A stretch of DNA of 42,861 bases from contig DASVWD010000241.1 of NCBI GenBank assembly GCA_036389795.1, positions 1 through 42,861 on the forward strand. Direction: 5' to 3'. Under the pieces are notes generated by a model, which worked only from the letters and a program-made list of their open reading frames with translations, ran no database searches and was not told the origin of the DNA. Shown piece after piece: positions 7,583 through 42,700 of this stretch. Position numbers and translations under genes: made by a program. The DNA is from Longimicrobium sp. Its GTDB lineage: Bacteria > Gemmatimonadota > Gemmatimonadetes > Longimicrobiales > Longimicrobiaceae. Position 1 is the stretch's first letter. Each line of letters opens with the position of its first letter.

Positions 7583-7595
7583 ACACCGGCCCCCT

Positions 7596-7636
7596 CGCAC
7601 TTCGCACTTCGCACTTCGCACTTCGCACTTCGCACT
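7596..7636. repeat. Heptamer tandem array (CGCACTT)
   Basis: Five perfect CGCACTT units plus a partial CGCACT, placed five bases downstream of the ABC permease stop codon (minus strand). Same family as the arrays at 2646 and 5083. Confidence 0.9.
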
Positions 7637-7641
7637 CGGAC

Positions 7642-21100: not shown

Positions 21101-21362
21101 AGAGCTGCGGCGGTTTGTAGGTCGCAAGGTGGTCGGCGATCCCCGCCTGCAGGGTTCCCTGAACCATCGGCCCGATCGCCGCCTTCAGCATCTCCTGCGT
21201 CGCGGCGGTCCCGACGCTGTGCGTCACCTGCGTCTGGACGAGCGGCGCGACCTTCTTCGCCACCGCCTCGTCAATCAGCTCCTGGATGTCCGGTGCGGCC
21301 GCGGGGGCCGGCGCTCCGGTGCCTGCCAGCAGCTTGCTGAACCATCCGGTACCGTTTGCCAT
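18174..21362 (-). CDS. Large protein with collagen-like Gly-X-Y tail
   Basis: 1062 residues; no full-length family recognised. No signal peptide. The N-terminal 130 residues are helical ([19 protein letters not shown]). Two copies of a beta module follow (about 177-228 and 382-433), each of the form VATI-T-TPH-L--GD-V-----DASF-G---V--VP---TF-YAN, a motif common in phage tail and fibre proteins. Residues about 480-640 are helical and probably coiled ([40 protein letters not shown]), interrupted by a Gly-rich segment (541-575). A mixed beta region follows to about 990. The final 68 residues are 22 Gly-X-Y triplets (GPP, GPI, GVP, GLP, GAA) running straight into the stop, so the tail may be truncated. 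A trimeric fibrous surface or appendage protein is a fair inference. It sits between duplicated argH ends. Confidence 0.85.
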
Positions 21363-23411: not shown

Positions 23412-24653
23412 TCAGTCCGCCGCCACGTCCAGCAGCCGCGGCCCCGCCGCGGCGCGCTCCTGCTCCTTCAGCGCGCCCACGCGCATCGGCAGCGCGAAGA
23501 GGCGGATGAAGCCGGCGGCGTCGGCCTGGTCGTAGACGTCGTCCTCGCCGAAGGTGACGAAGCGCTCGTCGTACAGCGAGTACGGGCTGGTGCGGCCGGC
23601 AACGGTCGCGCTCCCCATGCACAGCTTCAGGCGCACGTCGCCCGTGACCCGCCGCTGGGTGACGTCCACCAGCGCGTCCATCGCCTCCCGCTCCGTCGTC
23701 CACCAGCGGCCCTCGTAGACCAGGTCCGCGTAGCGCGGGGCGACGGCGTCCTTGAGCGCCAGCGTGCGCCGGTCGAGCACCAGCTGCTCCAGCTCGCTGT
23801 GCGCCAGGTAGAGGAGCGTGCCGCCGGGCGTCTCGTAGATCCCGCGCGACTTCATCCCCACCATGCGGTCCTCCACCAGGTCCACCCGGCCCACGCCGTG
23901 CAGCCCGCCCACCTCGTTCAGCCGCTCCAGCAGCGCCACCGGCGAGAGCGCCTCGCCGTCCACCGCGACGGGGTAGCCGCTGTCGAAGGTGATGGTCACG
24001 TACTCGGGCTTGGCCGGCGCATCCCACGGTGCGCGGGTGAGGAGGAAGATGTCCTCCGTCGGCTCCCAGCCCGGGTCCTCCAGCGGCCCGCCCTCGTGCG
24101 AGACGTGCCAGATGTTGCGGTCGCGCGAGTAGATCTTCTCCCGGGTCGCGGCGACCGGGACGCCGTGCGCGGCGGCGTAGTCGAGGGCGTCCTCGCGGGA
24201 GCGGATGTCCCACTCGCGCCAGGGGGCGACCACCTTCATCTCGGGGGCCAGGCAGGCGTAGGTGAGCTCGAAGCGCACCTGGTCGTTGCCCTTCCCCGTG
24301 CAGCCGTGCGCCAGCGTGTCGGCGCCGATCTGCCGCGCCACCTCCACCTGCCGCCGGGCGATGATCGGCCGCGCCATCGAGGTGCCCAGCAGGTACTTGC
24401 GCCCGTAGACGGCGCCGGCGCGCAGCGTGGGCCACACGAACTCGGTGAGGAACGTCTCGCGCAGGTCCTCCACGTAGCAGGCCTTCGCGCCCGAGGCGAG
24501 CGCCTTGGCCTGCAGCCCCTCCAGCTCGTCGCCCTGTCCCACGTCGGCCGCCACGCACACCACGTCGGCGCCGTAGTTCTCCTTCAGCCAGGGGACGATG
24601 ATCGAGGTGTCGAGGCCGCCCGAGTAGGCGAGGACGATGGTGTTGTTCGGCAT
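23412..24653 (-). CDS. argG: Argininosuccinate synthase
   Basis: 413 residues from ATG 24653. Joins citrulline and aspartate with ATP to form argininosuccinate. The ATP-pyrophosphatase P-loop AYSGGLDTS is at residues 9-17, and the family motifs [13 protein letters not shown] and [13 protein letters not shown] are intact. The frame opens nine codons earlier with a GTG (24680), but [13 protein letters not shown] is the standard N-terminus and a GGGGGA lies eight bases before it. Part of argC-B-D-A, G-H; separated from the upstream cistron by about 130 bp holding a strong hairpin, so it may have its own promoter or depend on read-through. Confidence 0.97.
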
Positions 24654-24723
24654 CTTCGCGATCCCCCGGTTTATGTCCACGGTTGCTGCTGCTCGTTCTA
24701 CGGGAGTCCTAAGTCCTTAGTGT

Positions 24724-26510: not shown

Positions 26511-27286
26511 CCTAGCGCCTTTCTCGCCAGCGGCGGCGCCCCCGCGGTGACGCAGGTCCCCGCCCGTGTGTCGTCCAGCATCTCCACCCCGCCGATCCGC
26601 ACCCGCCCCACCGCGGCCGCGGCCTTCGCGGCGAAGCGGAGCTTGGGCGCCATCCCCCCGGCCGCCGTCCCTTCCTCGATCAGCCGCTCCACCTCTTCGG
26701 CGGCGACTTCCCCGACCACCGCGCCGTCCGCCAGCACGCCGGCGACGTTGGAGACGAAGAGGAGCTCCGCGGCCCCCAGCACCGCCGCCACCGCGGCGGC
26801 GGCCTCGTCGGCGTTGACGTTGAGCGGCCCGCCGTCCGGCCCCCGCGACACGGGGGAGAGCACCGGGGTGAGCCCCTGCGCCAGCCAGCCGGAGAGCAGC
26901 TCCGCCCGCACCGCCACCACCTCGCCCGTGCGCCCCAGCGCGCCGCCGTGGGAGGGGCGGGCCTGGATGAGCCCCGCGTCCTCGCCCGAGACCCCCAGCG
27001 CGTCCACCTTCGCGCCGACGAGCGCGGAGACGATGCGCTTGTTCACCAGCCCGGAGAGGACCATCGCCACCACCCGCATCGTCTCCGGCGTGGTCACGCG
27101 CAGGCCGTCGCGCCACTCCGGCTCGGCGCCCAGGGTCCGCTGCAGCGCGGAGACCTCCTTGCCGCCGCCGTGGACGATCACCGTCCCCCCGTCCCGGGCC
27201 GCGACCGCGCGCGCGAGGCGCTCCAGCCAGGCGGGGTCGTCCACCTCGTGGCCGCCCACCTTCACCACCACGGCCCCCGCGCTCAC
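26507..27286 (-). CDS. argB: Acetylglutamate kinase
   Basis: 259 residues from GTG 27286. Amino-acid-kinase fold: VVKVGGHEVDD with Lys9, the VHGGGKEV glycine loop (38-45), and LNVNADEAAAAVA near the acetylglutamate/nucleotide site. It phosphorylates N-acetylglutamate using ATP. The GTG start overlaps the argC TGA as GTGA and lies directly before the first kinase strand. Length fits the shorter, N-extension-free form, which in known cases is less sensitive to arginine feedback; that is an inference here. Confidence 0.93.
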   Translation of the reverse strand: MSAGAVVVKVGGHEVDDPAWLERLARAVAARDGGTVIVHGGGKEVSALQRTLGAEPEWRDGLRVTTPETMRVVAMVLSGLVNKRIVSALVGAKVDALGVSGEDAGLIQARPSHGGALGRTGEVVAVRAELLSGWLAQGLTPVLSPVSRGPDGGPLNVNADEAAAAVAAVLGAAELLFVSNVAGVLADGAVVGEVAAEEVERLIEEGTAAGGMAPKLRFAAKAAAAVGRVRIGGVEMLDDTRAGTCVTAGAPPLARKALG

Positions 27287-28287
27287 GCCAGCCCTTCCCG
27301 CTCGCAGAGGCCGAACATCAGGTTCAGGTTCTGCACGGCCTGCCCGGCCGCGCCCTTCACCAGGTTGTCGATGGCCGCGAACACGGTGAGCATCGGCGCC
27401 GCCACGCCCGCCACGGCCGCCACCCCGAGCGCCACCCGGTTGGTCCCCACCACGTCGGCCAGCGTGGGCGGCCGGCCGGTGACGACGTCGACGAACGGCT
27501 CGCCCGCGTAGTCGGCCTCCCACAGCTCCGCCGGGTCGCCCGGGAGCGGCTCGCGCAGGGTGACGTGGATCGTCTCCAGGATCCCGCGCTTCACCGGCAG
27601 CAGGTGCGGGGTGAAGACCAGCTCCGGCGCCGCCGCCCCGCCGGGCCCCGCCAGCCCCGCCGCCTGGTCGCGCATCTCGGCCAGGTGCCGGTGCACGTTG
27701 CCGACGGAGTAGGCGCGGTAGTCCTCGGCCACCTCGGCGAAGAGCATCTCGCGCTTCGGCGAGCGCCCCGCCCCCGTCACCCCCGACGCCGCGTCCACGA
27801 TCACCGGCCCGGCGACCATCCCCCGGCGCAGCAGCGGCGCCAGCGCGAGCAGCGCGGCGGTGGGGTAGCACCCCGGGTTGGCCACCAGCTCCGCCCCCGC
27901 GATCCGCGCCCGGTGCAGCTCGGGGAGGCCGTAGACGGCGCCGCGCCCCCACTCCGGCGTGCCGGGGCCGACCACCCGCAGGTCGTTCGACAGGTCCACC
28001 ACCTTCGCGCCGGCCTCGCGCGCCGCCTTCACCCACCGCGCCGACTCGCCGTGCGGCAGGCACGAGAGCACCGCGTCGCAGCGGTGGAGGGGGGCGTCTT
28101 CGGCCCGCACCAGCGGCAGGTCGGGCGCGCCGCGCGCCAGCCGTGAAAGAGAAGCCCCAGCCTCCGATTCGGAGCTAGCCAGGGCGATCTCGCACTTCCC
28201 GTGTCCCGCCAGGAGGCGGACCACCTCCCTTCCGGCGTATCCCGACGCGCCGAGCACGCCGACGCGCAGGACAGAATCCCTATTCAT
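27283..28287 (-). CDS. argC: N-acetyl-gamma-glutamyl-phosphate reductase
   Basis: 334 residues from ATG 28287. NADPH-binding start LRVGVLGASGYAGREVVRLL (7-26) and the active-site Cys140 in ANPGCYPTA. It reduces acetylglutamyl phosphate to the semialdehyde. First gene of the cluster. The frame extends 25 codons upstream, but that stretch holds the promoter hexamers described separately, and MNRDSVLRVG is a normal N-terminus. No ribosome-binding site is present, which fits a near-leaderless transcript. Confidence 0.95.
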   Translation of the reverse strand: MNRDSVLRVGVLGASGYAGREVVRLLAGHGKCEIALASSESEAGASLSRLARGAPDLPLVRAEDAPLHRCDAVLSCLPHGESARWVKAAREAGAKVVDLSNDLRVVGPGTPEWGRGAVYGLPELHRARIAGAELVANPGCYPTAALLALAPLLRRGMVAGPVIVDAASGVTGAGRSPKREMLFAEVAEDYRAYSVGNVHRHLAEMRDQAAGLAGPGGAAAPELVFTPHLLPVKRGILETIHVTLREPLPGDPAELWEADYAGEPFVDVVTGRPPTLADVVGTNRVALGVAAVAGVAAPMLTVFAAIDNLVKGAAGQAVQNLNLMFGLCEREGLA

Positions 28288-28339
28288 TGGAGAGAATTTA
28301 TATCCGCAACCATGAATAGTCAACCGTTTGTGTGAATAG
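28280..28339 (-). promoter_or_regulatory. argC promoter with TGAATAG operator repeats
   Basis: On the minus strand: -35 TTGACT (28323-28318) and -10 TATAAA (28302-28297; spacer 15, or TAAATT with spacer 17). The predicted start point is only about two to four bases before the argC ATG, so the mRNA would be nearly leaderless. CTATTCA occurs twice on minus, 20 bp apart (28339-28333 and 28319-28313), flanking the -35, and once inverted over the start codon (28280-28286). TGAAT/ATTCA are the half-sites of ArgR boxes in other bacteria, so repression by arginine is plausible, although the spacing differs from a classical box. Confidence 0.65.
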
Positions 28340-28362
28340 ATATCCTGCAGAAGCCGGGCCAC

Positions 28363-29086: not shown

Positions 29087-32000
29087 CTATGGGATCTGGT
29101 TGGCGAGGAGGCGCTCGGCTTCTTCTTCCGACAGCCCCTCGATCCAGGCGAGCAGGGTCTCGTCGGCGGCCGGGGCGGGGCGGCGGCGCGCCTCGACCAG
29201 CGCCGCCAGGTCGCGGACGGTGGGATACTCGAAGAGCGCGCCCACCGGGACCTCGGCCCCCAGCCGCGAGCGCAGCCGGGAGACGACCCGCGTGGCGCGC
29301 AGCGAATGGCCGCCCAGGTCGAAGAAGTTGTCCCCGGCGCCCACGCTCTCCACCTCCAGCACCTCGCGCCAGATCGCCGCCACCGCCTGCTCGGTGGCCG
29401 TGGCCGGCGGCTCGGACCCGCGGACGGACGCACACGCCTCGGGTGCGGGGAGGGCACGCCGGTCGATCTTCCGCGAGGGGGTGAGCGGGAGCGCGTCCAT
29501 CCGGACGATCGCGGAGGGGACCATGTAGGGAGGCAGCCGCGAGGCCAGGTGCTCGCGCAGCGCGGCCGCGTCGAAGTCCGTCCCCGGCGCGGGGACCACC
29601 CAGGCGGCCAGGTAGCGGTCCTGCGCCGAAGCGCCGCGCGCGGCGGCCGCCGCCTCGGCCACGGCCGGGTGGGCGCGCAGCACGGCCTCCACTTCGCCGG
29701 GCTCCACGCGGAAGCCGCGCACCTTCACCTGGTCGTCGAAGCGGCCCAGGAACTCCAGCGCGCCGTCCGCCCGCCAGCGCCCGCGGTCGCCGGTGCGGTA
29801 CAGGCGCGCGCCCGGCTCGCCCGAGACGGGGTCGGGGACGAAGCGCTCGGCGGTGAGCGCCGGGCGGCGCAGGTAGCCGCGCGCCAGCCCGTCGCCGCCC
29901 ACGTACACCTCGCCGGGGACGCCCACGGGCGCGGGCCGCATCGCCGGGTCCAGCACGTAGGCGAGCGAGTTCGCGATCGGGCGGCCGATCGGCACCGGGA
30001 CGCCGGGCTCGGCGTGCCCGATCTCGTGCCAGGTGGACAGGGTGGTGTTCTCCGTGGGGCCGTAGACGTTCAGCACCCGGCGCGGCGGGCGCCCGTCCAG
30101 GATGCGCCGCAGCACCGCGGGGTCGGGCGCCTCGCCGCCGGTCACGAGCGCGTCCATCCCGGCGAAGACGTCCGGCTCTTCCGCCACCACGTGCGCCAGG
30201 AAGGCGGGGGGGAGGAAGACCGTGCCGACCCCCTCCTCCCGCAGCGTGCGCGCGAGGGCGGGCGGCGACAGCATCTCCTCGCGGTCCAGCACCACCACCC
30301 GGCCGCCGTTCAGCAGCGGGCCGAACACCTCCCACAGCACCGTGTCGAAGGAGATGCTGATCCCCTCGCTCACGCGGTCGCCGGGTCCGAGCCGCACGTA
30401 GTCCGTCTCGCACACCAGCCGCACGATCCCGCGGTGGACGATCCCGCTCCCCTTCGGCGTCCCGGTCGACCCCGACGTGTAGAGGATGCACGCGAGAGAC
30501 TCGGGGAAGACGGGGGCCGGGGCGAGCGGCCCGGGATCGTCGCCGCCGAGGCCGCGCGCGAGCGAGAGCACGGGGCCGGCCCAGCCGCCGAGCGAGGCGG
30601 GGACTTCGTCGCGGACCACGAGCACGGCGGCGCGCGCGCCGGCCAGCATCAGGGCCAGCCGCTCCGGCGGGTAGGCCGGGTCGAGCGGGAGGAACGCGCC
30701 GCCCGCCTTCAGCACCCCCAGGAAGACCGCGATCGTCTCCGGCGAGCGCTCCATCGCCACGCCCACCGGGTCTTCGGGGCCCACGCCGAGCGCGCGGAGC
30801 CGCCGCGCCAGCGCGTCCGAGGCCTCGTCCAGCTCCGCGTACGTCAGCGTCCGGCCGTGGTGCGCCACCGCGACCGCGTCCGGCGTCCGGAGCGCCTGCT
30901 CGGCGAAGAGCTCGTGCACCGTGGCGTCGCGCGGGTACGGCGTGGGCGCGCCGCCCAGGCGGACCACCTCGCGCTCCTCCTCGACCGACATCAGCCGCAG
31001 CTCCGAGACGCGGGCGGCGGGGCGGGCGAGCGCGTCCTCCAGCAGCGCCTGGTAGTGGCCGATCATCCGGCGGATGGTGGCGGCGTCGAAGAGGTCTTCC
31101 GCCCACTCCCAGATCATCACCACCTCGTCCAGCCCCGCGCCCTGCTGCGCGCGGGGGATCACGACCACGTTCAGGTCGAACTTGGCCGACTGGTTCCCCA
31201 GCCCCTCCTCCACCGCCAGCGCGGCCCCGGGGAGGCGCATCTCCGGATACGGCGCGTGGTGGAAGGAGAACGCCACCTGGAAGACGGGGAGGTGCCCCAG
31301 CGAGCGCTCGGGGTGCACGGCGGCCACGATCTCGGCGAACGGCACGTCCTGCCGCGCGAACGCCTCCAGCGCCGCGCCGCGCGCCCGGTCCACCAGCGCC
31401 TCGAACGCCGGGTCGCCCGAGACGTCGGCGCGGATCGGGATCGTGTTCACCACCATCCCGATCAGCTCCTCCGTCTCGCGCAGCCGCCGGTCGGCCACGC
31501 CGCTGCCGACGCAGAAGTCCGTCTCGCCCGTGTAGCGGTGCAGGAGCGCCTGGAACGCGGCGGAGAGCGTCATGTACAGCGTGACCCCGCGCGCGCGGCT
31601 GTAGCCGTCCGCCGCCTCGTAGAGGTGCCGGGGGAGACGGAGCCGGAAGCCGCTGCCGCGGAAGCTCATCTCCGGCGGACGGGGGCGGTCGGCGGGGAGC
31701 TCCAGCACGGGGGGCACCCCCTCCAGCCGGCGCTTCCACCAGTCGAGCTGACCCCGCGCCTCGTCGGTCTCCATCCACGCCCGCTGCCACGCCGCGAAGT
31801 CCGCGTACTGGACCGCCAGCTCCGGGAGCGGCGACGGCTCGCCGCGCAGGAACGCGGAGTAGATCGCCGTCAGCTCGCGCAGGAACACGCCGAAGCTCCA
31901 GCCGTCGTGCACCAGGTGCTGCTCCACGCAGACGAGCACGTGCTCCTGGTCGGCGAGCCGCGCCAGGCTCCAGCGCGCCAGCGGGAGCGCCGCCAGGTCG

Positions 32001-34099
32001 AACGGCCGCGCGAACTCCTCCTCCAGCAGCCGCCCGAGCGCCGCCTCGCGCTCGTCTCCGGGGAGATGACGGAAATCGGCGACCGGGAGACGGACGGCCC
32101 ACGGCGGGTGGATGCGCTGCACCGGGGCGCCGTCCACCGCCGGGAAGGTGGTGCGGAAGATCTCGTGGCGGCGGACGATCTCGGTGAGCGCCCGCTCCAG
32201 GGCGGGGACGTCGAGGGCGCCGGAGACGCGCACCGTCGCCTGGAAGTTGTAGGAGCGGATGTCGGGGGCGAGCTGGTGGAAGAACCAGATCGCCTCCTGC
32301 GGGAAGGAGAGCGGCAGCGGCCCGTCGCGCGGCGCCCGCGGGATCGTCACCCCCCGGCCGTCGCCCGGCGCCACCAGCCGCGCCAGCTCCTCCACCGTGG
32401 TCAGCGAGAAGAGCGAGGCCAGCGGCAGCTCGGCGCCCAGCCGCTCGCGCACCCGAGCCGCGATCTGCGCCGCCCGCAGCGAGTGGCCGCCGAGCGCGAA
32501 GAAGTCGTCGCGCACCCCGACGCGCTCCGCGCCCAGCACCTCGGCCCAGATCCCCGCCAGCGCCTCCTCGGCCGGCGTGCGCGGGGCCACGTACTCGGCC
32601 TCCACGTCGCGCGCGGGGTCGGGCGCGGGGAGCGCCAGCCGGTCCACCTTGCCGTTGGGCGTGCGCGGGAGCGCGGGGAGGAAGACGACGGCCTCGGGCA
32701 CCATGTAGTCCGGCAGCCGCCCGCGCACGAAGGCGCGCAGCTCGGCCGCGGAGGGCTTCTCACCGTCGACGGCCACGTACGCCGCCAGGCGCCGCTCGCC
32801 GCGCTCCTCCCAGGTGGAAACGGCCGCCTCGCGCACGGCGGGGTGGGCGAGGAGCGCCGTCTCGATCTCCCCCGGCTCCACGCGGTAGCCGCGCACCTTC
32901 ACCTGGTGGTCGATGCGACCCAGGCACTCCAGGTCGCCGTCGGGGAGCCGGCGGCCCAGGTCGCCGGTGCGGTACATCCGCGCGCCGGGCGCGGCGAACG
33001 GGTCCGGGCGGAAGCGCTCCGCCGTCATCCCCGGCGCGCCCAGGTAGCCGCGCGCCAGCCCCGCGCCCGACATCCACACCTCGCCCACCTCGCCGGGGGC
33101 GGCCTCGCGCAGCTGCTCGTCCAGCACGCGCACCGCCGTCCCGTCCACCGCCCGGCCGACGGTCATCGCCCGCTCGCGGCCGGGCTCGACTTCCTTGCAG
33201 GTGGAGTAGGTGGTGTCTTCCGTGGGCCCGTAGAGGTTGAGGACGCGCCGGACGTGGCCGGGGGCGTAGAGCTCCTGCGCCAACTCGTTGCGCAGCGGCT
33301 CGCCTCCCAGTCCCAGCACGCGCACGCACGGCGGGACGGCGCCCAGCCGCGCCAGCTCCGCCGCCGCCGAGGGCACCATGCAGGCGGTCGTGACCGGCTC
33401 CTCCAGCGTGGCCAGCGACAGCGCGTTCTCCACCAGGACGATGGTGCCGCCCCAGCAGAGCGTCCCGAAGATCTCGGCGATGGAGACGTCGAAGCAGACC
33501 GAAGTGGAGGCCAGCACCGACGCGCGCTCCTCGTCCGACAGCGTCTTCCGCAGCCACTGCAGCACGGCCACGGTGCCGCGGTGCTCGATCTGCACCCCCT
33601 TCGGCCGCCCCGTGGAGCCGGACGTGTAGATGACGTACGCCAGGTTCTCGGGATGCACCGCCGCGTCCGGCCGCGCCGCATCGAGCCCGTCGATCTCCTC
33701 CCGCTCCGCGTCGACGCGGACGACCCGCCCCGTGTAGCCGTCGATCGATTCCGCCCGCGCCGCGTCCGTCACCAGCACCGGCACGCGCGTGTCGGCCAGC
33801 ATGTAGGCGACGCGCTCCGGCGGGTACGCGGGGTCGAGGGGGACGTACGTGCCGCCCGCCTTGAGCACCGCGAGCAGCGCGGCGACCAGGTCCGGCGTCC
33901 TCGGCAGCAGCACCCCGACGGGCACCTCCGCGCCGACGCCCAGCGCGCGCAGCCGGTGCGCCAGCCGGTTGGCGCGCGCGTCCAGCTCCGCGTAGGTAAT
34001 CGTCTCACCGTGGAAGCGCACCGCCGGCCGGTCGGGCGTGGCGGCCGCCTGCCTCTCGAACAGGTGGTGGATGCAGGCGGCGGAACTATCGTGGGTCAT
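29087..34099 (-). CDS. Dimodular NRPS, A-T-C-A-T (NRPS-1)
   Basis: 1670 residues. A1 (about 1-500): YVIYTSGSTGRPKGV (155-169), YRTGDLGR, PNGKVDR. T1: LGGHSL with phosphopantetheine Ser540. C (about 590-1025): the HHxxxDG motif reads QHLVHDG (727-733), with the first His replaced but His728 and Asp732 kept. A2 (about 1060-1560): LYTSGSTGTPKG. T2: LGGHSL with Ser1599. It ends in LLAWIEGLSEEEAERLLA. No epimerase, thioesterase or reductase domain. Read by alignment to GrsA, the pockets are A1 D-V-A-C-G-G-L-T-Y and A2 D-T-W-F-V-G-V-T-L; A2 looks hydrophobic, and A1 shares its L-T-Y ending with some cyanobacterial Gly-type domains (tentative). The start has no clear ribosome-binding site. A paralogue lies directly upstream. 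Confidence 0.95.
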   Translation of the reverse strand: MTHDSSAACIHHLFERQAAATPDRPAVRFHGETITYAELDARANRLAHRLRALGVGAEVPVGVLLPRTPDLVAALLAVLKAGGTYVPLDPAYPPERVAYMLADTRVPVLVTDAARAESIDGYTGRVVRVDAEREEIDGLDAARPDAAVHPENLAYVIYTSGSTGRPKGVQIEHRGTVAVLQWLRKTLSDEERASVLASTSVCFDVSIAEIFGTLCWGGTIVLVENALSLATLEEPVTTACMVPSAAAELARLGAVPPCVRVLGLGGEPLRNELAQELYAPGHVRRVLNLYGPTEDTTYSTCKEVEPGRERAMTVGRAVDGTAVRVLDEQLREAAPGEVGEVWMSGAGLARGYLGAPGMTAERFRPDPFAAPGARMYRTGDLGRRLPDGDLECLGRIDHQVKVRGYRVEPGEIETALLAHPAVREAAVSTWEERGERRLAAYVAVDGEKPSAAELRAFVRGRLPDYMVPEAVVFLPALPRTPNGKVDRLALPAPDPARDVEAEYVAPRTPAEEALAGIWAEVLGAERVGVRDDFFALGGHSLRAAQIAARVRERLGAELPLASLFSLTTVEELARLVAPGDGRGVTIPRAPRDGPLPLSFPQEAIWFFHQLAPDIRSYNFQATVRVSGALDVPALERALTEIVRRHEIFRTTFPAVDGAPVQRIHPPWAVRLPVADFRHLPGDEREAALGRLLEEEFARPFDLAALPLARWSLARLADQEHVLVCVEQHLVHDGWSFGVFLRELTAIYSAFLRGEPSPLPELAVQYADFAAWQRAWMETDEARGQLDWWKRRLEGVPPVLELPADRPRPPEMSFRGSGFRLRLPRHLYEAADGYSRARGVTLYMTLSAAFQALLHRYTGETDFCVGSGVADRRLRETEELIGMVVNTIPIRADVSGDPAFEALVDRARGAALEAFARQDVPFAEIVAAVHPERSLGHLPVFQVAFSFHHAPYPEMRLPGAALAVEEGLGNQSAKFDLNVVVIPRAQQGAGLDEVVMIWEWAEDLFDAATIRRMIGHYQALLEDALARPAARVSELRLMSVEEEREVVRLGGAPTPYPRDATVHELFAEQALRTPDAVAVAHHGRTLTYAELDEASDALARRLRALGVGPEDPVGVAMERSPETIAVFLGVLKAGGAFLPLDPAYPPERLALMLAGARAAVLVVRDEVPASLGGWAGPVLSLARGLGGDDPGPLAPAPVFPESLACILYTSGSTGTPKGSGIVHRGIVRLVCETDYVRLGPGDRVSEGISISFDTVLWEVFGPLLNGGRVVVLDREEMLSPPALARTLREEGVGTVFLPPAFLAHVVAEEPDVFAGMDALVTGGEAPDPAVLRRILDGRPPRRVLNVYGPTENTTLSTWHEIGHAEPGVPVPIGRPIANSLAYVLDPAMRPAPVGVPGEVYVGGDGLARGYLRRPALTAERFVPDPVSGEPGARLYRTGDRGRWRADGALEFLGRFDDQVKVRGFRVEPGEVEAVLRAHPAVAEAAAAARGASAQDRYLAAWVVPAPGTDFDAAALREHLASRLPPYMVPSAIVRMDALPLTPSRKIDRRALPAPEACASVRGSEPPATATEQAVAAIWREVLEVESVGAGDNFFDLGGHSLRATRVVSRLRSRLGAEVPVGALFEYPTVRDLAALVEARRRPAPAADETLLAWIEGLSEEEAERLLANQIP

Positions 34100-34190
34100 T
34101 CGAGGAAACGGAAGGAAGGGCGGGAAGAACTGCGGAACGGTGGGTTTGCCGAATTCATCAGCTCAGCGTGCAACCAGGCTCCCCGAAAGT

Positions 34191-34396
34191 ATGTCATTCC
34201 GAGCGGCGCCGCATCGCCGAAGACGTTGATTACACTGAAGCCGTGCGGCGCCCGAGGAATCTACTCACCCCGCGGCGTGGCTGGCTCCGCGCACTGATCC
34301 GGCCTCGCCGCAGCCGCGGGTAGATTCCTCGGGAGCCCGGCCGACTTCGGCGGCGAGGGTAGATCGGCGCATCGGGCTCCACTCGGAATGACATCT
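34191..34396. repeat. Inverted pair of REP-like units between the NRPS genes
   Basis: Left unit ATGTCATTCCGAGCGGCGCCG...CGGCGCCCGAGGAATCTACTC and right unit GGGTAGATTCCTCGGGAGCCC...GGGCTCCACTCGGAATGACATC are in head-to-head inverse orientation. It occupies most of the 350 bp between the two NRPS genes, and no gene lies here. Confidence 0.85.
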
Positions 34397-34449
34397 CTCT
34401 TTGAAGACGGCCCGGAGCCGCGACTCTGGACCGCGTGGTCCCGGCGCCC

Positions 34450-37400
34450 TCAGCCGTCACCGACGGCGCCCTCGGCCAGGAGGCGCTCGGCTTCCTCTTC
34501 GGAGAGGCCCTCGATCCACGCGACCAGGGCCTCGTCGTCCACGGGGGCGGGGCCGCGCAGCTCGTCCACCCGCGCCGCCAGGGTGCGCACCGTGGGGTTC
34601 GCGAAGATCGCCCCCACCGCGAGCTTGACCCCCAGCCGGGTCTGCACCCGCCAGACGATGCGCGTGGCCCGCAGCGAGTGCCCGCCCAGGTCGAAGAAGT
34701 CGTCGTCGGCGCCCACCCGCTCCACGTCCAGCACCTCGCGCCAGATCTCCGCCATCACCCGCTCGGTGGGCGTGGCGGGCTCGGCGAAGGGCGCGGCCGA
34801 GACGGCGGCGTCGGCGGCGGGGAGCGCGCGGCGGTCGATCTTCCCCGAGGGCGTGGTGGGGACCCTGTCGACCACGACGAAGGCCGAGGGCACCATGTAC
34901 GCCGGCAGCCGCGCCGACAGCGCCTCGCGCAGCTCCGCCGGCTCCGGCGCCCGGCCGTTCGCGCCCGCCACGTACGCGGCCAGCCAGCGGTCGCCCGCGT
35001 CGTCCCGGCGCACCACCACGGCGGCCTCGGCCACCGCGGGGTGGGCGCGCAGCACCGCCTCCACCTCGCCGATCTCCACGCGGAAGCCGCGCACCTTCAC
35101 CTGGTGGTCCAGGCGGCCCAGGTAGTCCAGCACCCCCGACGCCAGCCAGCGCGCTTTGTCACCCGTGCGGTAGAGCCGCGCGCCCGCCTCGCCCGAGACG
35201 GGGTCGGGGACGAAGCGCTCGGCCGTCATCGCCGGCCGGTCCAGGTAGCCGCGCGCCAGCCCGTCGCCGCCGATGTAGAGCTCGCCGGCCACGCCCTCGG
35301 GCACCGGGCGCATCGCCTCGTCCAGCACGTAGAGCCGCGTGTTGGCCACGGGGACGCCGATCGGCACGGACGCCGCGCCCGGCTCCACCCGGTCCACCAC
35401 GTGCCACGAGGCGTAGGTGGTGCTCTCGGTGGGGCCGTACACGTTCAGGATGCGCCCCGGCGCGCCGTCCCGCAGCACGCGCTCCAGCACCGGGGCCTCC
35501 AGCGCCTCGCCGCCCAGGAGCAGGTGCGCCACGCTGGAGAACGCGTCGGGGACCTCGCCCACCGTCTGCCGGAGCGCCGTGGGGGTGAGGAAGAGCGCGC
35601 TCACCCGCTCCTCGCGCAGCCGCTGGGCCAGCACCGGCGGGGAGAGCAGCTCCTCGCGCTCGAACACCACCAGGCGGCCGCCGGCCAGCAGCGTCCCCCA
35701 GATCTCCCACAGCGACACGTCGAACGACGGCGTGGTCGCCTGCGCCACCACGTCCGTCTCGGAAAGCCGGAGGTAGTCGCTGTCCCGCACCACGCGCACG
35801 ATGCCGCGGTGCACGATGGCGATCCCCTTGGGCGTGCCCGTGGAGCCCGAGGTGTAAAGCACGCACGCCAGCGACTGCGCGAACGCCGGGGCGCCCTCCC
35901 CGTCCGCCAGCGCCTCCGCGGGGTGTCCGGCGAGCCCGGCGAGCGAGACCACGGGGCCGGCGAAGGAGGCGAGCGAAGGGGGGACCTCGCCGCGCACCAC
36001 CAGCGCGGCGGCCCGCGACTGGTCCAGCACCCAGGCCAGCCGCTCGGCCGGGTGGTCGGGGTCCAGCGGCACGTAGGCGCCGCCCGCCTGCAGCACGGCC
36101 AGGAACGCCACCACCATGTCCGCCGAGCGCTCCATCGCCACGCCCACGCGGCTCTCCGGCCCCACGCCGAGCGCGCGGAGCCGCCGCGCCAGCCGGCCCG
36201 CCTCGGCGTCCAGCTCCGCGCAGGTGAGCGAGCGGCGCCGGTCGCGGACGGCCACCGCGCCGGGGGTGCGGCGCGCCTGCTCGCGGAAGAGCGCGTGCAC
36301 CGTGGCCTCGCGCGGGTACGGCGTCGGCGCGCCGCCCAGCGCCACCAGCCGGCGCTCCTCCCCGGGCGGCAGCAGCCGCAGGCGGGAGACCGGCTCGTCC
36401 GGGCGGGCCAGCGCGTCGTCCAGCAGCGTCTCGAAGTGCCCCGCCATCCGGCGCACGGTGGACTCGTCGAACAGGTCCTCGGCCCACTCCCAGATCATCA
36501 CCACCTCGTCGCCCGCCCCCTGCTGCGCCCGCACGATGGCGATCACGTTCAGGTCGAACTTGGCGGACTGGTTCCCCAGCCCCTCCTCGACGTCCAGCGT
36601 GGCCCCGGGGAGCCGCAGCTCGGGGTACGGCGCGTGGTGGAAGCTGAACGCCACCTGGTAGACGGGGAGGTGCCCCAGCGAGCGCTCCGGGTGCACCTCG
36701 GCCACGATGCGGGCGAACGGCACCTCCTCGCGCGCGTACGCCTCCATCGCCTCGCCGCGCACGCGCTCCACCAGCGCGTGGAAGGCGGGGTCGCCGGAGA
36801 GGTCGGCGCGGACCGGGATGGTGTTCACCAGCATCCCGACCAGCTCCTCGGTCTCGCGGGCGTGCCGGTTCGCCACCGCGCTTCCCACGCAGAAGTCCGC
36901 CTCGCCCGTGTAGCGGTGCAGGAGCGCCTCGAACGCCGCGAAGAGCGTCATGAACAGCGTGACCCCCCGGGCGCGGCCGTACGCGTCGGCGCCCGCGTAG
37001 AGCCGCGGCGGCAGCGCGAGCCGCAGCGACCCGCCGCGGGCGGTGAGCTGCGACGGGCGCGGCCGGTCGGCGGGGAGCTCCAGCACCGGCGGCGCGCCCT
37101 CGAGCTTCTCGCGCCACCAGTCGAGCTGCTCGCGCGCCTCGTCCGTCTCCATCCAGGCGCGCTGCCACGCGGCGTAGTCGGCGTACTGGACCCGTGGCTC
37201 GGGGAGCGGCGACGGCAGGCCGCGCAGGAAGGCGGAGTAGAGGGCGACGAGCTCGCGCAGGAAGATCCCGAAGCTCCAGCCGTCGTGCACCAGGTGGTGC
37301 TCCACCACCAGCAGGACGTGCCGGTCGTCGGCCAGCCGGTAGAGCGTCCAGCGCACCAGCGGGAGCGCGGCCAGGTCGAACGGCCGCCGGAACTCCGCCT

Positions 37401-39474
37401 GGAAGCGGCGCCGGAGCTCCGCCTCGCGCTCGTCTTCGGGGAGATGACCGAGATCGGTGACGGGGAGATGGACGGCCCAGGGCGCGTGGATGCGCTGCAC
37501 CGGCGCCCCGTCGGCTTCGGGGAAGGTGGTGCGGAAGATCTCGTGGCGGCGGACGATCTCGCCGAGCGTCCGCTCCAGCGCGGGGACGTCGAGCGCGCCC
37601 GAGACGCGCACCGCCGCCTGGAAGTGGTACGAGAGCGTCCCCGGCACCAGCTGCTGGAAGAACCAGACGGCCTCCTGCCCGATGGAGAGCGGGATCGGCC
37701 CCTCCCGGGGAGCGCGGGGGATCGCGGCCGCCGCCCTTTCCGCCGGGGCCGCGACGCGCCGCGCCAGCTCCGCGACGGTGGGCATGGCGAAGAGGTCGGC
37801 CAGCGACAGCTCCGCGCCCAGCCGCTCGCGCACCCGCGAGGCGATCCGCACCGCGGCGAGGGAGTGGCCTCCCAGGTCGAGGAAGGCGTCGGTGGCGCCC
37901 ACCCGCTCCACGCCCAGCACCTCGGCCCAGATCGCCGCGAGGGCGGCCTCGGCCTCCGTGCGGGGGGCGACGTATTCGCCGCGGGCGGCCGGCGCGGGCG
38001 CGGGGAGCGCGGCGCGGTCCACCTTGCCGTTGGGGAGGCGCGGGAGCGCGGGGAGGAAGACGATGGCGCCCGGCACCATGTAGTCGGGGAGCCGCTCGCC
38101 CACGAAGCGGCGCAGCTCGCCGGGATCGGGCGCCTCGCCGGCGGGGACGACGTACGCCGCCAGGAGCTGCGCGCCCCCCTCGCCGCGCGCCGCCGCCGCC
38201 GCGTCGGCCACCGCAGGGTGGGCCCGGAGCGCCGCCTCCACCTCGCCGGGCTCCACGCGGAAGCCGCGGACCTTCACCTGCTCGTCGGCCCGGCCCAGGA
38301 TCTCCAGCTCGCCGCGCTCGTCCAGGCGCCCCAGGTCGCCGGTGCGGTACATCCGCGCGCCGGGCGCCCCGGCGTGGGGGTCGGGGCGGAAGCGGTCGGC
38401 GGTGAGGGCGGGCGACCCGGCGTACCCGCGCGCGAGCCCGGCGCCCGCGACCCACACCTCCCCCGCCTCGCCGGGGCCGACGGGGTGCAGCCCGGAATCC
38501 AGCAGGTGCACCGCCTTCCCCGGCAGCGGGCGGCCGACGCTCACCGGCCCCTCGCCTGGCGTCAGCTCGCCGCCGGTGGAGTAGGTGGTGTCTTCGGAGG
38601 GGCCGTAGAAGTGCATCACCCGGCACGACCGCCCCAGCGCACGCAGGCGCTCCGCGACGTCGGGCGCCATCGCCTCGCCGCCGACGGCCAGGGTGCGCAG
38701 CGTGGGCGGCAGGCGCCCGGCGCCGAGCAGCTCCCCCGCGGCGGAGGTGATCACGAAGGCGGCCGTCACCGGCTCGACCTCCCCCGCCAGGGCCAGCACG
38801 TTATCCACCAGCGCCACCGTGCCGCCCGACGCCAGCGGTCCGAAGAGCTCGGGGATGGAGGCGTCGAAGCAGACCGACGACGCGGCGAGCATGGTCTCCC
38901 GCTCGCCAGCCGGGTAGAAGCGCTCGAACCAGCGCAGGAGGTGCACGGCGCTCCTGTGCTCGATCTGCACCCCCTTGGGCCGGCCCGTGGAGCCCGAGGT
39001 GTAGATGACGTACGCCAGGTTCTCCGGATGCACTGCCGCGTCCGGCCGCGCCGCGGGCAGCCTGTCGATCTCCTCCCGCTCCGCGTCGATCCGGACGATC
39101 TCCCCCGTGTAGCCAGCGACCGATCCCGCCCGCGCCGCGTCCGTCACCAGCACCGGCGCGCGCGTGTCGGCCAGCATGTAGGCGATGCGCTCGGGCGGGT
39201 AGGCAGGGTCGAGGGGGAGGTACGCGCCGCCCGCCTTGAGCACCGCGAAGATGGCGACCAGCAGGTCCGCCGTCCTCGGCAGCAGCACCCCGACGGGCAC
39301 CTCCGGCCCCACGCCCAGCGCGCGCAGCCGGTGCGCCAACCGGTTGGCGCGCTGGTCCAGCTCCGCGTAAGTGAGCTGCTCCCCGCGGCAGCGCACGGCG
39401 GGCCGGTGAGGCGTGGCGTCCGCCTGCCGCTCGAAGAGGCGGTGGATGCAGGCGGCGGAGAGGTCGTCGGTCAT
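34450..39474 (-). CDS. Dimodular NRPS, A-T-C-A-T (NRPS-2)
   Basis: 1674 residues and the same architecture as NRPS-1. A1 (about 1-500; YVIYTSGSTGRPKGV, PNGKVDR), T1 with Ser538 in LGGHSL, a C domain (about 590-1020) with an intact HHLVHDG motif, A2 (about 1060-1560), T2 with Ser1600, and the tail VAWIEGLSEEEAERLLAEG. GrsA-aligned pockets: A1 D-A-P-F-A-G-F-T-Y and A2 D-V-W-F-L-G-V-T-Y (A2 hydrophobic-looking). It lacks epimerase, thioesterase and reductase domains. Its first residues (TDDLSAACIHRLFERQA) closely match those of NRPS-1, so the two genes arose by duplication. It lies 208 bp after the aminotransferase gene, in the same direction, and is probably co-transcribed with it. Confidence 0.95.
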   Translation of the reverse strand: MTDDLSAACIHRLFERQADATPHRPAVRCRGEQLTYAELDQRANRLAHRLRALGVGPEVPVGVLLPRTADLLVAIFAVLKAGGAYLPLDPAYPPERIAYMLADTRAPVLVTDAARAGSVAGYTGEIVRIDAEREEIDRLPAARPDAAVHPENLAYVIYTSGSTGRPKGVQIEHRSAVHLLRWFERFYPAGERETMLAASSVCFDASIPELFGPLASGGTVALVDNVLALAGEVEPVTAAFVITSAAGELLGAGRLPPTLRTLAVGGEAMAPDVAERLRALGRSCRVMHFYGPSEDTTYSTGGELTPGEGPVSVGRPLPGKAVHLLDSGLHPVGPGEAGEVWVAGAGLARGYAGSPALTADRFRPDPHAGAPGARMYRTGDLGRLDERGELEILGRADEQVKVRGFRVEPGEVEAALRAHPAVADAAAAARGEGGAQLLAAYVVPAGEAPDPGELRRFVGERLPDYMVPGAIVFLPALPRLPNGKVDRAALPAPAPAARGEYVAPRTEAEAALAAIWAEVLGVERVGATDAFLDLGGHSLAAVRIASRVRERLGAELSLADLFAMPTVAELARRVAAPAERAAAAIPRAPREGPIPLSIGQEAVWFFQQLVPGTLSYHFQAAVRVSGALDVPALERTLGEIVRRHEIFRTTFPEADGAPVQRIHAPWAVHLPVTDLGHLPEDEREAELRRRFQAEFRRPFDLAALPLVRWTLYRLADDRHVLLVVEHHLVHDGWSFGIFLRELVALYSAFLRGLPSPLPEPRVQYADYAAWQRAWMETDEAREQLDWWREKLEGAPPVLELPADRPRPSQLTARGGSLRLALPPRLYAGADAYGRARGVTLFMTLFAAFEALLHRYTGEADFCVGSAVANRHARETEELVGMLVNTIPVRADLSGDPAFHALVERVRGEAMEAYAREEVPFARIVAEVHPERSLGHLPVYQVAFSFHHAPYPELRLPGATLDVEEGLGNQSAKFDLNVIAIVRAQQGAGDEVVMIWEWAEDLFDESTVRRMAGHFETLLDDALARPDEPVSRLRLLPPGEERRLVALGGAPTPYPREATVHALFREQARRTPGAVAVRDRRRSLTCAELDAEAGRLARRLRALGVGPESRVGVAMERSADMVVAFLAVLQAGGAYVPLDPDHPAERLAWVLDQSRAAALVVRGEVPPSLASFAGPVVSLAGLAGHPAEALADGEGAPAFAQSLACVLYTSGSTGTPKGIAIVHRGIVRVVRDSDYLRLSETDVVAQATTPSFDVSLWEIWGTLLAGGRLVVFEREELLSPPVLAQRLREERVSALFLTPTALRQTVGEVPDAFSSVAHLLLGGEALEAPVLERVLRDGAPGRILNVYGPTESTTYASWHVVDRVEPGAASVPIGVPVANTRLYVLDEAMRPVPEGVAGELYIGGDGLARGYLDRPAMTAERFVPDPVSGEAGARLYRTGDKARWLASGVLDYLGRLDHQVKVRGFRVEIGEVEAVLRAHPAVAEAAVVVRRDDAGDRWLAAYVAGANGRAPEPAELREALSARLPAYMVPSAFVVVDRVPTTPSGKIDRRALPAADAAVSAAPFAEPATPTERVMAEIWREVLDVERVGADDDFFDLGGHSLRATRIVWRVQTRLGVKLAVGAIFANPTVRTLAARVDELRGPAPVDDEALVAWIEGLSEEEAERLLAEGAVGDG

Positions 39475-39519
39475 CTCGAAGACGGCAGGAGGACGACGGG
39501 AAGAAAACCGCGGAACTGC

Positions 39520-39549
39520 AGGGTACAGGGGACAGGGTACAGGGGACAG
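39520..39549. repeat. 14-bp tandem repeat
   Basis: AGGGTACAGGGGAC repeated twice in the gap between the aminotransferase and NRPS-2. Same style as the other intergenic arrays but with a longer unit. Confidence 0.8.
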
Positions 39550-39588
39550 CCGACCACAACGCGCCGCCCCCGCACCGATTCGTCATGT

Positions 39589-39645
39589 CCACCCTCTCCC
39601 GAAGTCGGGAGAGGGTTGCCGCTCTAAGGCGGCGGGTGAGGGCCC
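39589..39645. repeat. Dispersed 57-bp palindromic element, copy 2
   Basis: Matches 1857-1913 with one mismatch. It lies about 40 bp past the stop of the aminotransferase gene on minus. Confidence 0.85.
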
Positions 39646-39681
39646 TCGCGGCCGCGCGGACGCTCGTCCGCGGAGCGAGCC

Positions 39682-40926
39682 CTACCCCACCGCCTCGCGC
39701 ACCACGCGCCCCAGCCGCGCGATCCCCTCCTCGATCTGCGCGACCGTGGGGTGCGAGAAGTTGAGCCGCATGGCGCTGGCCCCGGCGCGGCCCCCGTCCA
39801 CGGCGAAGGCGCTCCCGGGGACGTAGGCCACGCCCTCCGCCTCCAGCGCCACGCGCAGCAGCGCGGTGGTGTCGACCTCGCCGGGAAGCTCCACCCACAC
39901 CAGCGCCCCGTGCCGCGGCACGCTCCAGCGCGTCCCCGCGGGGAAGTGGCGCTCCAGCGCGGCGATCATGGTGTCGCGCCGCAGGCGGTACGCCGCGCGC
40001 ACCGTCTCCAGGTGCACCCCGAAGCGCCCGGAGGCCAGGTACTCCGACACCAGCCCCTGCGCGAAGGTGGAGGTGTCGATGTCGCTGCCGTCCTTGGCGC
40101 TGGCCAGCACGTCCATCATCTCCTCCGGCGCCACCAGCCAGCCCACGCGGAAGCCCGGCGCCATCACCTTGGAGAGCGAGCCCACGTAGAAGATCCCGCG
40201 CTCCTCCATCGCCCTGAGCGGCGGGAGCGGGCGGTCGTAGTGCAGCAGCCCGTAGGCGTCGTCCTCGATCACCCGCACGCCGAAGCGGCGCGCCAGCCGC
40301 ACCAGCCGCGCGCGCTTCTCCAGGCTCACGCTCACCCCCAGCGGGTTGTGCCCGTCGGTGATGCAGTAGACGAACGCCGGCCGCTCGCCCTCCTCCAGCA
40401 GCGCCTCCACCGCGTCCACGTCCATCCCCGTCTCCAGGTCGCTCTCCACCGCCAGCACGCGGGGGCGGAAGGGCTCGATCACCTGGCGGAAGCCCATGTA
40501 GACGCGCCGCTCGCAGACGATCGTCCCCCCCGGCTCCAGGAAGAGCCGCGCCAGGATGGAGAGCGCCTGCTGCGCGCCGGTGGTGAGGAACACCTGCTCG
40601 GGGCGGCAGCGCACCCCGCGCCCGGCCATGAGCGCCGCCACCTGCTCGCGCAGGCGCCGCGGGGGGGTGCGGTACTGGAGCGCGCCCGGGTCCGACGCCA
40701 GCACCCGCTCCGCCGCGCGCGCCCACTCCTCCACCGGGAACAGGTCGGGCGCCGGCAGCCCCAGCGCGAAGGAGATCACCCCGGGGCGCGCCATCAGCCC
40801 CATCATCTCCCCGATGACGGAGGGACGCAGGTCGTGCGTCCAGGCGGCCAGCTCGGGCGCCGGGGCGAAGGGAACCGCGCCGGAGTCCGGCGGCGGGAGG
40901 AGGACGGAGGTGTCGTGGACCGTCAT
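39682..40926 (-). CDS. PLP-dependent class I/II aminotransferase (LysN/KAT-like)
   Basis: 414 residues. The fold-type I aminotransferase pattern is complete: ISFALGLPAPDLFP (51-64), FLTTGAQQALSIL (113-125), NPLG (194-197) where most relatives have NPTG, the cofactor Asp in IEDDAYG (220-226), and the Schiff-base Lys253 in GSLSKVMAPGFRVGW. This is the 2-aminoadipate/multi-substrate branch also used as the C-terminal half of MocR regulators, but here without a DNA-binding domain. ATG 40926 has GAGAGG upstream. It comes first in the presumed aminotransferase-NRPS operon, so it may supply or modify an amino acid for the synthetases; a housekeeping role cannot be excluded. Confidence 0.88.
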   Translation of the reverse strand: MTVHDTSVLLPPPDSGAVPFAPAPELAAWTHDLRPSVIGEMMGLMARPGVISFALGLPAPDLFPVEEWARAAERVLASDPGALQYRTPPRRLREQVAALMAGRGVRCRPEQVFLTTGAQQALSILARLFLEPGGTIVCERRVYMGFRQVIEPFRPRVLAVESDLETGMDVDAVEALLEEGERPAFVYCITDGHNPLGVSVSLEKRARLVRLARRFGVRVIEDDAYGLLHYDRPLPPLRAMEERGIFYVGSLSKVMAPGFRVGWLVAPEEMMDVLASAKDGSDIDTSTFAQGLVSEYLASGRFGVHLETVRAAYRLRRDTMIAALERHFPAGTRWSVPRHGALVWVELPGEVDTTALLRVALEAEGVAYVPGSAFAVDGGRAGASAMRLNFSHPTVAQIEEGIARLGRVVREAVG

Positions 40927-41350
40927 GCGCACCTCTCCAGACCGCGGGAGGCGGCGGGGGTCGAGGGCGGGAAAGTGCCGCGGGCGGAGGGCGGGACCGG
41001 CCGGCGGAACGCCAGGACGGAGCGGCCACCGCGCGGACGCGAACGATAACAGCGCGCTCGTATCTGATGCAACCCGTTCGCGGAATCTGTTACGGCGAGG
41101 ACGGTTGGGAGTGCGTGAGTGCGAGAGTGCGAAAGTGCGAGAGTGCGTGAGTGCGTAGGGTCGAGGCATGCCTCGACCGGCAGGGCTGGCTGGACGCGCC
41201 GAGCCTGCGGAACGCACCGAATCCAGTCCGCGCAGGCGGACTTCGCGCCGTTGCAGCGGGTGGTTTCAACCACCCGTATATCAACCACCCCCGCCGCACG
41301 TGGACGGAGTGGTCGAAACGCTGGACAGCGGGCGCGGGGGGAGTTAGGTT
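40927..41350. other. Divergent intergenic region with repeats
   Basis: No gene in 424 bp between the divergent aminotransferase and regulator genes. It contains the octamer array (41109-41156), the palindrome GGTCGAGGCATGCCTCGACC (41159-41178) and two small hairpins, AGTCCGC/GCGGACT near 41240 and GGGTGGTTTCAACCACCC near 41270. Promoters for both directions should lie here; the regulator beside it may bind within it. Confidence 0.65.
41109..41156. repeat. Octamer tandem array (GAGTGCGT/GAGTGCGA)
   Basis: Six 8-bp units varying only at the first and last base. Unlike most arrays here it lies upstream of genes on both sides. Confidence 0.9.
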
Positions 41351-42364
41351 GTGTACGTCTCGCGTATGACGCGAGCGGCCACGAATCCTGATTCACCCGA
41401 CGAAACCAGACACGCGATGCAACCCGTAGCCCGCCCGCTGCTGGTGCTCCACTCCGACAACATCTTCAAGGAGCGGCTGCGCCGGATCGGAAATCAGCGC
41501 TTCAAGAGCCAGTTCGTGAACGACTGGGACGGGCTGCGAGTGGCGCTAAAAGAGTCGCCGCCCGCCGCCCTCGTCGTCGTCGACCCGTACACGCACAGCT
41601 ACGGCACCGAGGCCGAGCTGGCGCCCGAGCTGCGCTCCATGCTGTGGGAGTTCCCCACCGCCACGGTGATCGCCGCGCTGGAGGTCAAGCGCGGCCGGAT
41701 GCGCGACCTGCGCACGCTGGGCGAGTGGGGGGTCAAGGAGGTGATCGCCCTCGACGAGGAAGACACCCTGGAGGCCATCTCGCGCCGGCTGCGCTCCGCG
41801 CAGGGGCGGCCCCTGCAGAGCCTGCTGGAGCGCTCGCTGCCGGCCACGCTGTCGGGGCGCGCGCGCACGCTGCTGATGGCCGCCGCCGAGGTGGTGGCCG
41901 AGGGCGGCCACGGGCGCGACCTGGCGGCGTCGCTCCGGCTGTCGGAGCGCACCCTGCTGCGCTGGGCCGAGCAGGCCGACCTGCCGCCGCCGCGCCGGAT
42001 CCTGGCGTGGATGCGCGTGCTGCTCGCCTGCGAGCTGCTGGACGACCCCGGCCAGACGGTGCTCTCGGTGGCCTACACCTGCGGCTACGCCTCGGACAGC
42101 TCGCTGCGCCGGGCGGTGCAGGAGTTCACCGACGTGCTGCTCACGGAGCTGCGCAAGCAGGGCGCCTTCGCCACCGCCTCGGAGAAGTTCCTGGCGGAGC
42201 TGGAGGAGACGCGCGAGCAGGGCCGCGCCCGCCGCAAGGCCGAGCGCGCCGCCGGCGGCGCCGAGCGTCCCGAGCGCCCCGCCCGGCGTGCCGAGCGCGA
42301 TGCCGGGACCGAGCGTGCCGGGACAGGGCGTGCCGCGCGCGCCAGGCCCGCGATCATGAACTGA
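41351..42364 (+). CDS. AraC-type regulator with receiver-like N-terminus
   Basis: 337 residues. Residues about 28-145 look like a response-regulator-like fold (RPLLVLHSDNIFKERL, then ALVVVDPY with Asp78, then VIAALEVKRG, then GVKEVIAL). Several usual receiver residues are missing, so phosphorylation is doubtful. Residues about 170-265 are an AraC-type double helix-turn-helix (DLAASLRLSERTLLRWAEQA; VLSVAYTCGYASDSSLRRAV). The last 50 residues are a low-complexity Arg/Ala/Glu-rich tail (GGAERPERPARRAERD). GTG 41351 has GGGGGAG seven bases before it; ATG at 41366 is the alternative. It diverges from the aminotransferase-NRPS genes and is the natural candidate for their regulator. Confidence 0.75.
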   Translation: MYVSRMTRAATNPDSPDETRHAMQPVARPLLVLHSDNIFKERLRRIGNQRFKSQFVNDWDGLRVALKESPPAALVVVDPYTHSYGTEAELAPELRSMLWEFPTATVIAALEVKRGRMRDLRTLGEWGVKEVIALDEEDTLEAISRRLRSAQGRPLQSLLERSLPATLSGRARTLLMAAAEVVAEGGHGRDLAASLRLSERTLLRWAEQADLPPPRRILAWMRVLLACELLDDPGQTVLSVAYTCGYASDSSLRRAVQEFTDVLLTELRKQGAFATASEKFLAELEETREQGRARRKAERAAGGAERPERPARRAERDAGTERAGTGRAARARPAIMN

Positions 42365-42559: not shown

Positions 42560-42600
42560 ATATCGCGGGAGCAGGATTCGGAGCCGGACCCGAGCAGTTC

Positions 42601-42700
42601 CGTACTTCCGTACTTCCGTACTTCCGTACTTCCGTACTTCCGTACTTCCGTACTTCCGTACTTCCGTACTTTCGCACTTCGCACCCCGCACTTCGCACTT
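42601..42700. repeat. Octamer array (CGTACTTC x8) then heptamers
   Basis: Eight perfect CGTACTTC units followed by CGTACTTT and CGCACTTCGCAC. The longest tandem array in the window. The remaining 160 bp to the window end hold no recognisable gene. Confidence 0.92.

Follow-up and report, generated by a model that had tools for sequence, protein, structure and literature searches.

Two paralogous synthetases of a Longimicrobium genome as probable A-T-Curea-A-T starters

The two neighbouring non-ribosomal peptide synthetases (NRPS1 and NRPS2) encoded in the window, by which we mean the whole 42,861-nucleotide stretch of Longimicrobium sp. DNA analysed here, are best read as A-T-Curea-A-T starters, each of which would join two amino acids through a urea linkage. 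Taken as a whole this is the best explanation we can offer from sequence comparison, and we hold it with good, if not full, confidence. The kind of enzyme is already known; the new details are the phylum in which it occurs, the presence of twin starters that have no elongation genes in cis, and the splitting off of a helper locus. A literature search, with subscription papers mostly outside its coverage, returned no paper describing a ureido-forming NRPS in the Gemmatimonadota, which is weak evidence of novelty. NRPS products from this phylum have been little characterised, and ureidopeptides more generally include inhibitors of proteases and of the proteasome. The genome from which the window derives (G000) is unusually rich in NRPS genes for a member of the Gemmatimonadota, with 106 condensation-domain matches in 7.5 Mb.

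Architecture of the two synthetases and their surroundings

Both synthetases are encoded on the reverse strand by intact open reading frames, NRPS1 (1674 aa) at 34450-39474 and NRPS2 (1670 aa) at 29087-34099, and in each of them Pfam identifies two AMP-binding, one Condensation, two AMP-binding_C and two PP-binding domains with no further match. The domain order is A-T-C-A-T in both, with T as the last domain (in NRPS1, A1 38005-39474, T1 37735-37959, C 36343-37698, A2 34819-36288 and T2 34567-34773; in NRPS2, A1 32630-34099, T1 32369-32578, C 30962-32320, A2 29447-30907 and T2 29168-29401), such that a loading A-T pair precedes the C domain and a further A-T pair follows it. The proteins are 68% identical over their whole length, and the carrier serines and the A3 and A5 motifs are complete in both. 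The initial annotation had described a paralogous A-T-C-A-T pair whose members begin with A, end with T and accept no upstream chain, and the intact reading frames, Pfam order, coordinates and level of identity all agree with this; with an A domain first, each protein is a self-contained initiator.

Upstream of NRPS1, across a gap of 207 bp, lies a PLP-dependent aminotransferase of class I/II (39682-40926, reverse strand), and an AraC-type HTH regulator diverges from it on the forward strand (open reading frame 41351-42364, probable start 41417). Both had been named in the initial annotation and both are confirmed. The closest solved relatives of the aminotransferase are 2-aminoadipate and broad-substrate aminotransferases, and its orthologues flank an A-T-C-A-T gene in relatives; given this kinship, it may make one unusual amino acid. 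The regulator has a non-standard N-terminal domain. It is 93% identical to its orthologue in G002, a genome of the same genus, as against 61% for the synthetases, and a paralogue of it flanks the helper locus described below; its control may extend beyond the NRPS cluster. Downstream of NRPS2 are argC (27283-28362) and argG (23412-24680), which we rejected as cluster members since they belong to ordinary arginine biosynthesis, and the NRPS cluster therefore ends there. Near the two synthetase genes the window holds no gene for a thioesterase, reductase, MbtH or transporter, as the initial annotation had noted, and the locus contains neither an elongation gene nor a third ureido starter. A promoter and terminator scan gave no match.

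Several other features of the window were recorded. The 350 bp gap between NRPS1 and NRPS2 contains inverted copies of GAGGAATCTACY (34254-34330) inside a repeat-like stretch, and intergenic tandem arrays with units of 7-8 bp (TCGCACT, GAGTGCGA and TTCCGTAC) occur at 7594-7643, 41109-41155 and 42598-42680. An 889-aa protein (13249-15918) combines a MacB-like periplasmic core with FtsX permease domains and itself lacks an ABC ATPase domain, and a 1062-aa open reading frame (18174-21362) has a collagen-like repeat at its C-terminal end and is otherwise without a Pfam match.

The condensation domains and the ureido signature

The active site of the NRPS1 C domain reads EHHLVHDG (37280-37302, reverse strand), an exact instance of EHHXXHDG, which is the signature of ureido-forming C domains and which, in MIBiG, is absent from C domains of any other function (Yu & van der Donk 2024, PMC11212132). 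In NRPS2 the corresponding motif (31902-31924, reverse strand) is EQHLVHDG, a one-residue variant in which the first His is replaced by Gln. In the ureido-forming starter SnaA, which carries EHHLVHDG, residues E744, H746 and H749 are required for the reaction, as is an MbtH-like partner (PMC11212132). NRPS2 retains the Glu, the catalytic His and the extra His, which are the three residues mutated in SnaA, and the same EQH variant is found in the orthologues of G002 and G008 (a second genome of the genus) and at three further loci (L107, L115 and L148). Searching the whole genome with a degenerate nucleotide pattern that encodes the motif gave exactly two matches, NRPS1 and NRPS2, against its 106 C-domain matches. 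Among relatives, every family orthologue carries E[HQ]HxxHDG, which is missing from each of the roughly 70 other C domains at the loci examined, and the pattern matches that fell outside A-T-C proteins were in frames without an NRPS domain.

Since the motif alone may mislead, relatives were collected and a tree of C domains was built with the motif masked. The collection comprises 77 loci out of 84,980 genomes, the foreign loci having been found partly via the motif, and most of these loci encode A-T-C-A-T starters, which makes this the usual architecture across phyla. The tree was computed for 206 C domains after the eight columns of the motif had been taken out, and its references were assigned by motif and architecture rather than by chemistry. 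All 85 motif-bearing domains fell into one clade (support 0.917), which included none of the 121 others, and a tree from a smaller set agrees, placing 39 of 40 motif-bearing domains and none of 64 others in the clade.

These results bear directly on how the product might leave the synthetases. The initial annotation had suggested that dipeptidyl-T intermediates could depart spontaneously as diketopiperazines, which presupposes normal amide bond formation by the C domains; the A-T-C-A-T order and the lack of a release domain would allow this, and dipeptidyl thioesters are able to cyclise spontaneously. However, both the signature, in NRPS2 as its one-residue variant, and the motif-masked tree group the two C domains with the ureido-forming type, and a ureidodipeptide has no free amine with which to close the ring, as the amine of the first residue would be tied up in the urea and could not attack the thioester. 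We therefore rejected diketopiperazine release on the basis of C-domain subtype, which the initial annotation had overlooked, and consider an amide-forming pair improbable. More generally, an A-T-C-A-T protein may wrongly be taken to make diketopiperazines if the active site of its C domain is not read.

For the ureido-forming starters that we favour, the following sequence of events can be proposed. T1 would be charged with one amino acid by A1 and T2 with a second by A2, and the C domain would join the two amino groups via a carbonyl derived from bicarbonate, by analogy with syringolin, whose ureido carbonyl originates from bicarbonate (PMC2773804). The first residue would thereby leave T1, and the aa1-CO-aa2 product, with a free carboxylate on aa1, would stay on T2.

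Duplication, helper genes and the fate of the product

The C domains of NRPS1 and NRPS2 are 76% identical to one another, whereas that of NRPS1 is 67-68% identical to those of G002 and G008, whose orthologue is 61% identical at the protein level. With the NRPS1 C domain closest to that of NRPS2, the duplication is placed after the split from G002 and G008. The specificity regions of the A domains behave differently, with those of A1 sharing 52% identity between NRPS1 and NRPS2 against 85% between NRPS2 and G002, so that it is NRPS1 that has strongly diverged; the A2 specificity regions of the twins share 51%. A GrsA segment served as the reference for reading the code positions, and this method was checked by the recovery of Lys-type codes from cyanobacterial A2 domains with the same extraction. 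The A2 codes of the twins, DVWFLGVTY and DTWFVGVTL, resemble codes for aliphatic residues, and an aliphatic A2 substrate is therefore probable on this basis. The A1 codes are DAPFAGFTY and DVACGGLTY, and we know of no substrate code that matches either. Duplication followed by divergence of the A pockets would yield two alternative starters and with them two different ureidodipeptides.

In G002 and G008 a single A-T-C-A-T orthologue lies between the aminotransferase/AraC pair and a run of helper genes encoding an MFS protein, MbtH, a 3-hydroxyacyl-CoA dehydrogenase (3HADH), ACP, an acyl-CoA dehydrogenase (ACAD), a type II thioesterase (TEII), a phosphopantetheinyl transferase (PPTase) and a second AraC-type protein, and this compact cluster contains no other NRPS gene. 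In the window's genome the helper run is found on another contig (C72, at about 39-46 kb), where 3HADH and ACAD are 85% and 76% identical to their G002 counterparts. A trans-acting condensation or release enzyme encoded elsewhere had been allowed for, and helper enzymes (TEII, MbtH and PPTase) are indeed encoded on C72, although these genes and the MFS exporter beside them had themselves gone unnoticed. The genes upstream of the run on C72 are unrelated and arginine genes follow NRPS2, indicating that the locus is split unless the assembly is wrong. The second locus would provide for conversion of the carriers to the holo form (PPTase), activation of the A domains (MbtH), clean-up (TEII) and export (MFS).

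Relatives differ in what lies between the two halves. In G007 and G015 each half is at the end of a contig and the two ends would match up, in G014 both halves break inside NRPS genes, and in G001 and G009 NRPS genes are missing from this position, the aminotransferase being immediately adjacent to the MbtH/3HADH run. Across the family (L013, L014, L037-L040 and L055-L057) the AraC/aminotransferase flank and the MbtH/3HADH/ACP/ACAD/TEII/PPTase/AraC flank are conserved, and the NRPS genes between them range from absent to a complete hybrid line. In G015 the orthologue, which lies beside the aminotransferase, provides the first subunit of a long NRPS-PKS line with a thioesterase at its end and MbtH after it, which marks this type of A-T-C-A-T protein as a starter. 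It may be that the twins are the remnant of a G015-like ancestral line whose elongation part was lost or moved, and that they now make no product: elongation genes are not beside the starters in G000, G002 or G008, the locus is divided between contigs C241 and C72, and G001 and G009 keep the flanking genes alone. Against this, all reading frames are intact, active-site motifs are complete, orthologues and paralogues retain 61-68% identity, and duplication and divergence after the G002/G008 split are not expected of a dead gene, and we give this possibility little credence. As working starters, the twins would be a case of a ureido starter that underwent duplication, a change of specificity and separation from its helper genes while relatives retain a joined line, and this arrangement makes the origin of "alternative starter" pairs testable.

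On the fate of the T2-bound product the evidence is divided. Both NRPS1 and NRPS2 end in the tail LSEEEAERLL, and in the family's complete lines the chain-passing subunits have similar C-terminal tails, whereas thioesterase-ending proteins do not. This resemblance favours hand-over in trans, and the product would most likely be passed to an elongating NRPS, as in G015. When the leading C domain of the next G015 subunit was used to look for an acceptor in the genome, no clear orthologue emerged (best match 49%). This absence, the EQH variant in NRPS2 and in G002 and G008, and A1 codes without a known match are points against the reading as starters. The missing acceptor would suit free-standing ureidodipeptide synthetases that need no elongating NRPS, with two products freed by TEII or by hydantoin cyclisation and exported by the MFS protein. 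The compact clusters of G002 and G008, in which a single orthologue is accompanied by MFS, MbtH, TEII and PPTase and by no other NRPS, are in keeping with this, as are free-standing A-T-Curea-A-T-TE proteins in other bacteria (L112 and L145). Those proteins, however, have an integrated TE which NRPS1 and NRPS2 lack, the tails of the twins match chain-passing subunits, the G015 orthologue opens a long line and the usual role of TEII proteins is the editing of misloaded carriers; we regard free-standing synthesis as possible but doubtful. Its more specific form, in which twin self-sufficient synthetases that lack built-in release, elongation and epimerisation functions make two ureidodipeptides that TEII from the unlinked locus frees in trans, seems unlikely to us. 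A separately encoded C or TE enzyme that always co-occurs with the pair and makes a tetrapeptide would have counted against the initial annotation; a stand-alone TEII does co-occur, but the analysis turned up no line for a tetrapeptide.

The 3HADH, ACP and ACAD genes on C72 look like part of a hydroxymalonyl-ACP pathway, and with an FkbH-like protein on a third contig (C256) the genome holds FkbH-, FkbK-, FkbJ- and FkbI-like proteins. Apart from two incomplete genomes, the same genomes also have FkbH-like genes, which typically lie some 5 kb away from a KS; the one in G018 adjoins the 3HADH-ACP-ACAD cassette. We rejected the cassette as a dedicated precursor supply for the starters because it also occurs without an adjoining starter (G001, G009, G018 and G020). 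Together with the FkbH-like genes beside KS, this makes a PKS module the more likely beneficiary, and the cassette probably serves such a module near FkbH rather than the enzymes of the window. A plasmid match from Streptomyces (H1) has ACAD and acyltransferase neighbours.

Comparison with known systems

The initial annotation had recognised no known pathway in this cluster. For the product that still stands; for the type of protein it does not, as tandem paralogous A-T-Curea-A-T starters match ureidopeptide systems. The helper locus resembles FkbH/K/J/I-type hydroxymalonyl-ACP pathways in having 3HADH, ACP and ACAD in a row and an FkbH-like gene on C256, and differs from them in that the genes are divided between loci and that FkbI is a more distant relative of its ACAD than several other solved ACADs are.

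A group of A-T-Curea-A-T proteins of about 1930-1970 aa from Nitrosomonas, other Proteobacteria and Pelagibius (L112 and L145, also L114, L122, L132 and L140) has Gly-type codes in both A domains, a TE integrated where checked (L112 and L145) and, in some cases, a PPTase gene directly downstream. Judged by these codes, they are possibly free-standing makers of diglycine urea. NRPS1 and NRPS2 are like L112 and L145, themselves known from sequence, in their first five domains, in EHHLVHDG (NRPS1) and in having few NRPS genes around them, but the TE is not integrated and the A codes are not Gly-type.

The ureido-forming starters in MIBiG include SnaA (threopeptin) and those of the bulbiferamide, pseudovibriamide and chitinimide systems (PMC11212132). 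The twins share with these the A-T-Curea-A-T order, an identical EHHLVHDG in NRPS1 and an MbtH-like protein in the genome, and differ in being tandem paralogues, in the EQH of NRPS2 and in having no PKS or NRPS next in cis. In addition, their predicted substrates differ from the Arg/Arg of SnaA and their helper genes are unlinked.

The closest parallel for the pairing is the anabaenopeptin cluster in which AptA1 and AptA2 are two alternative ureido starters (PMC8402340), a pairing that some producers have. Cyanobacterial loci in our collection have, as in AptA/AptB, an A-T-C-A-T-E protein with a Lys-type A2 code (D[TA]EDIGSV) followed by a C-A-T protein. We rejected an anabaenopeptin synthetase identity for the twins, in which the Lys-type A2, the E domain and AptB-D are all absent: their A2 codes are DVWFLGVTY and DTWFVGVTL, both proteins end in T, no NRPS gene follows in the window and the phylum is a different one. 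What they have in common with AptA1 and AptA2 is the arrangement itself, namely two tandem paralogous A-T-C-A-T starters that carry the ureido signature, in NRPS2 as the EQH variant, and have diverged in their A1 domains.
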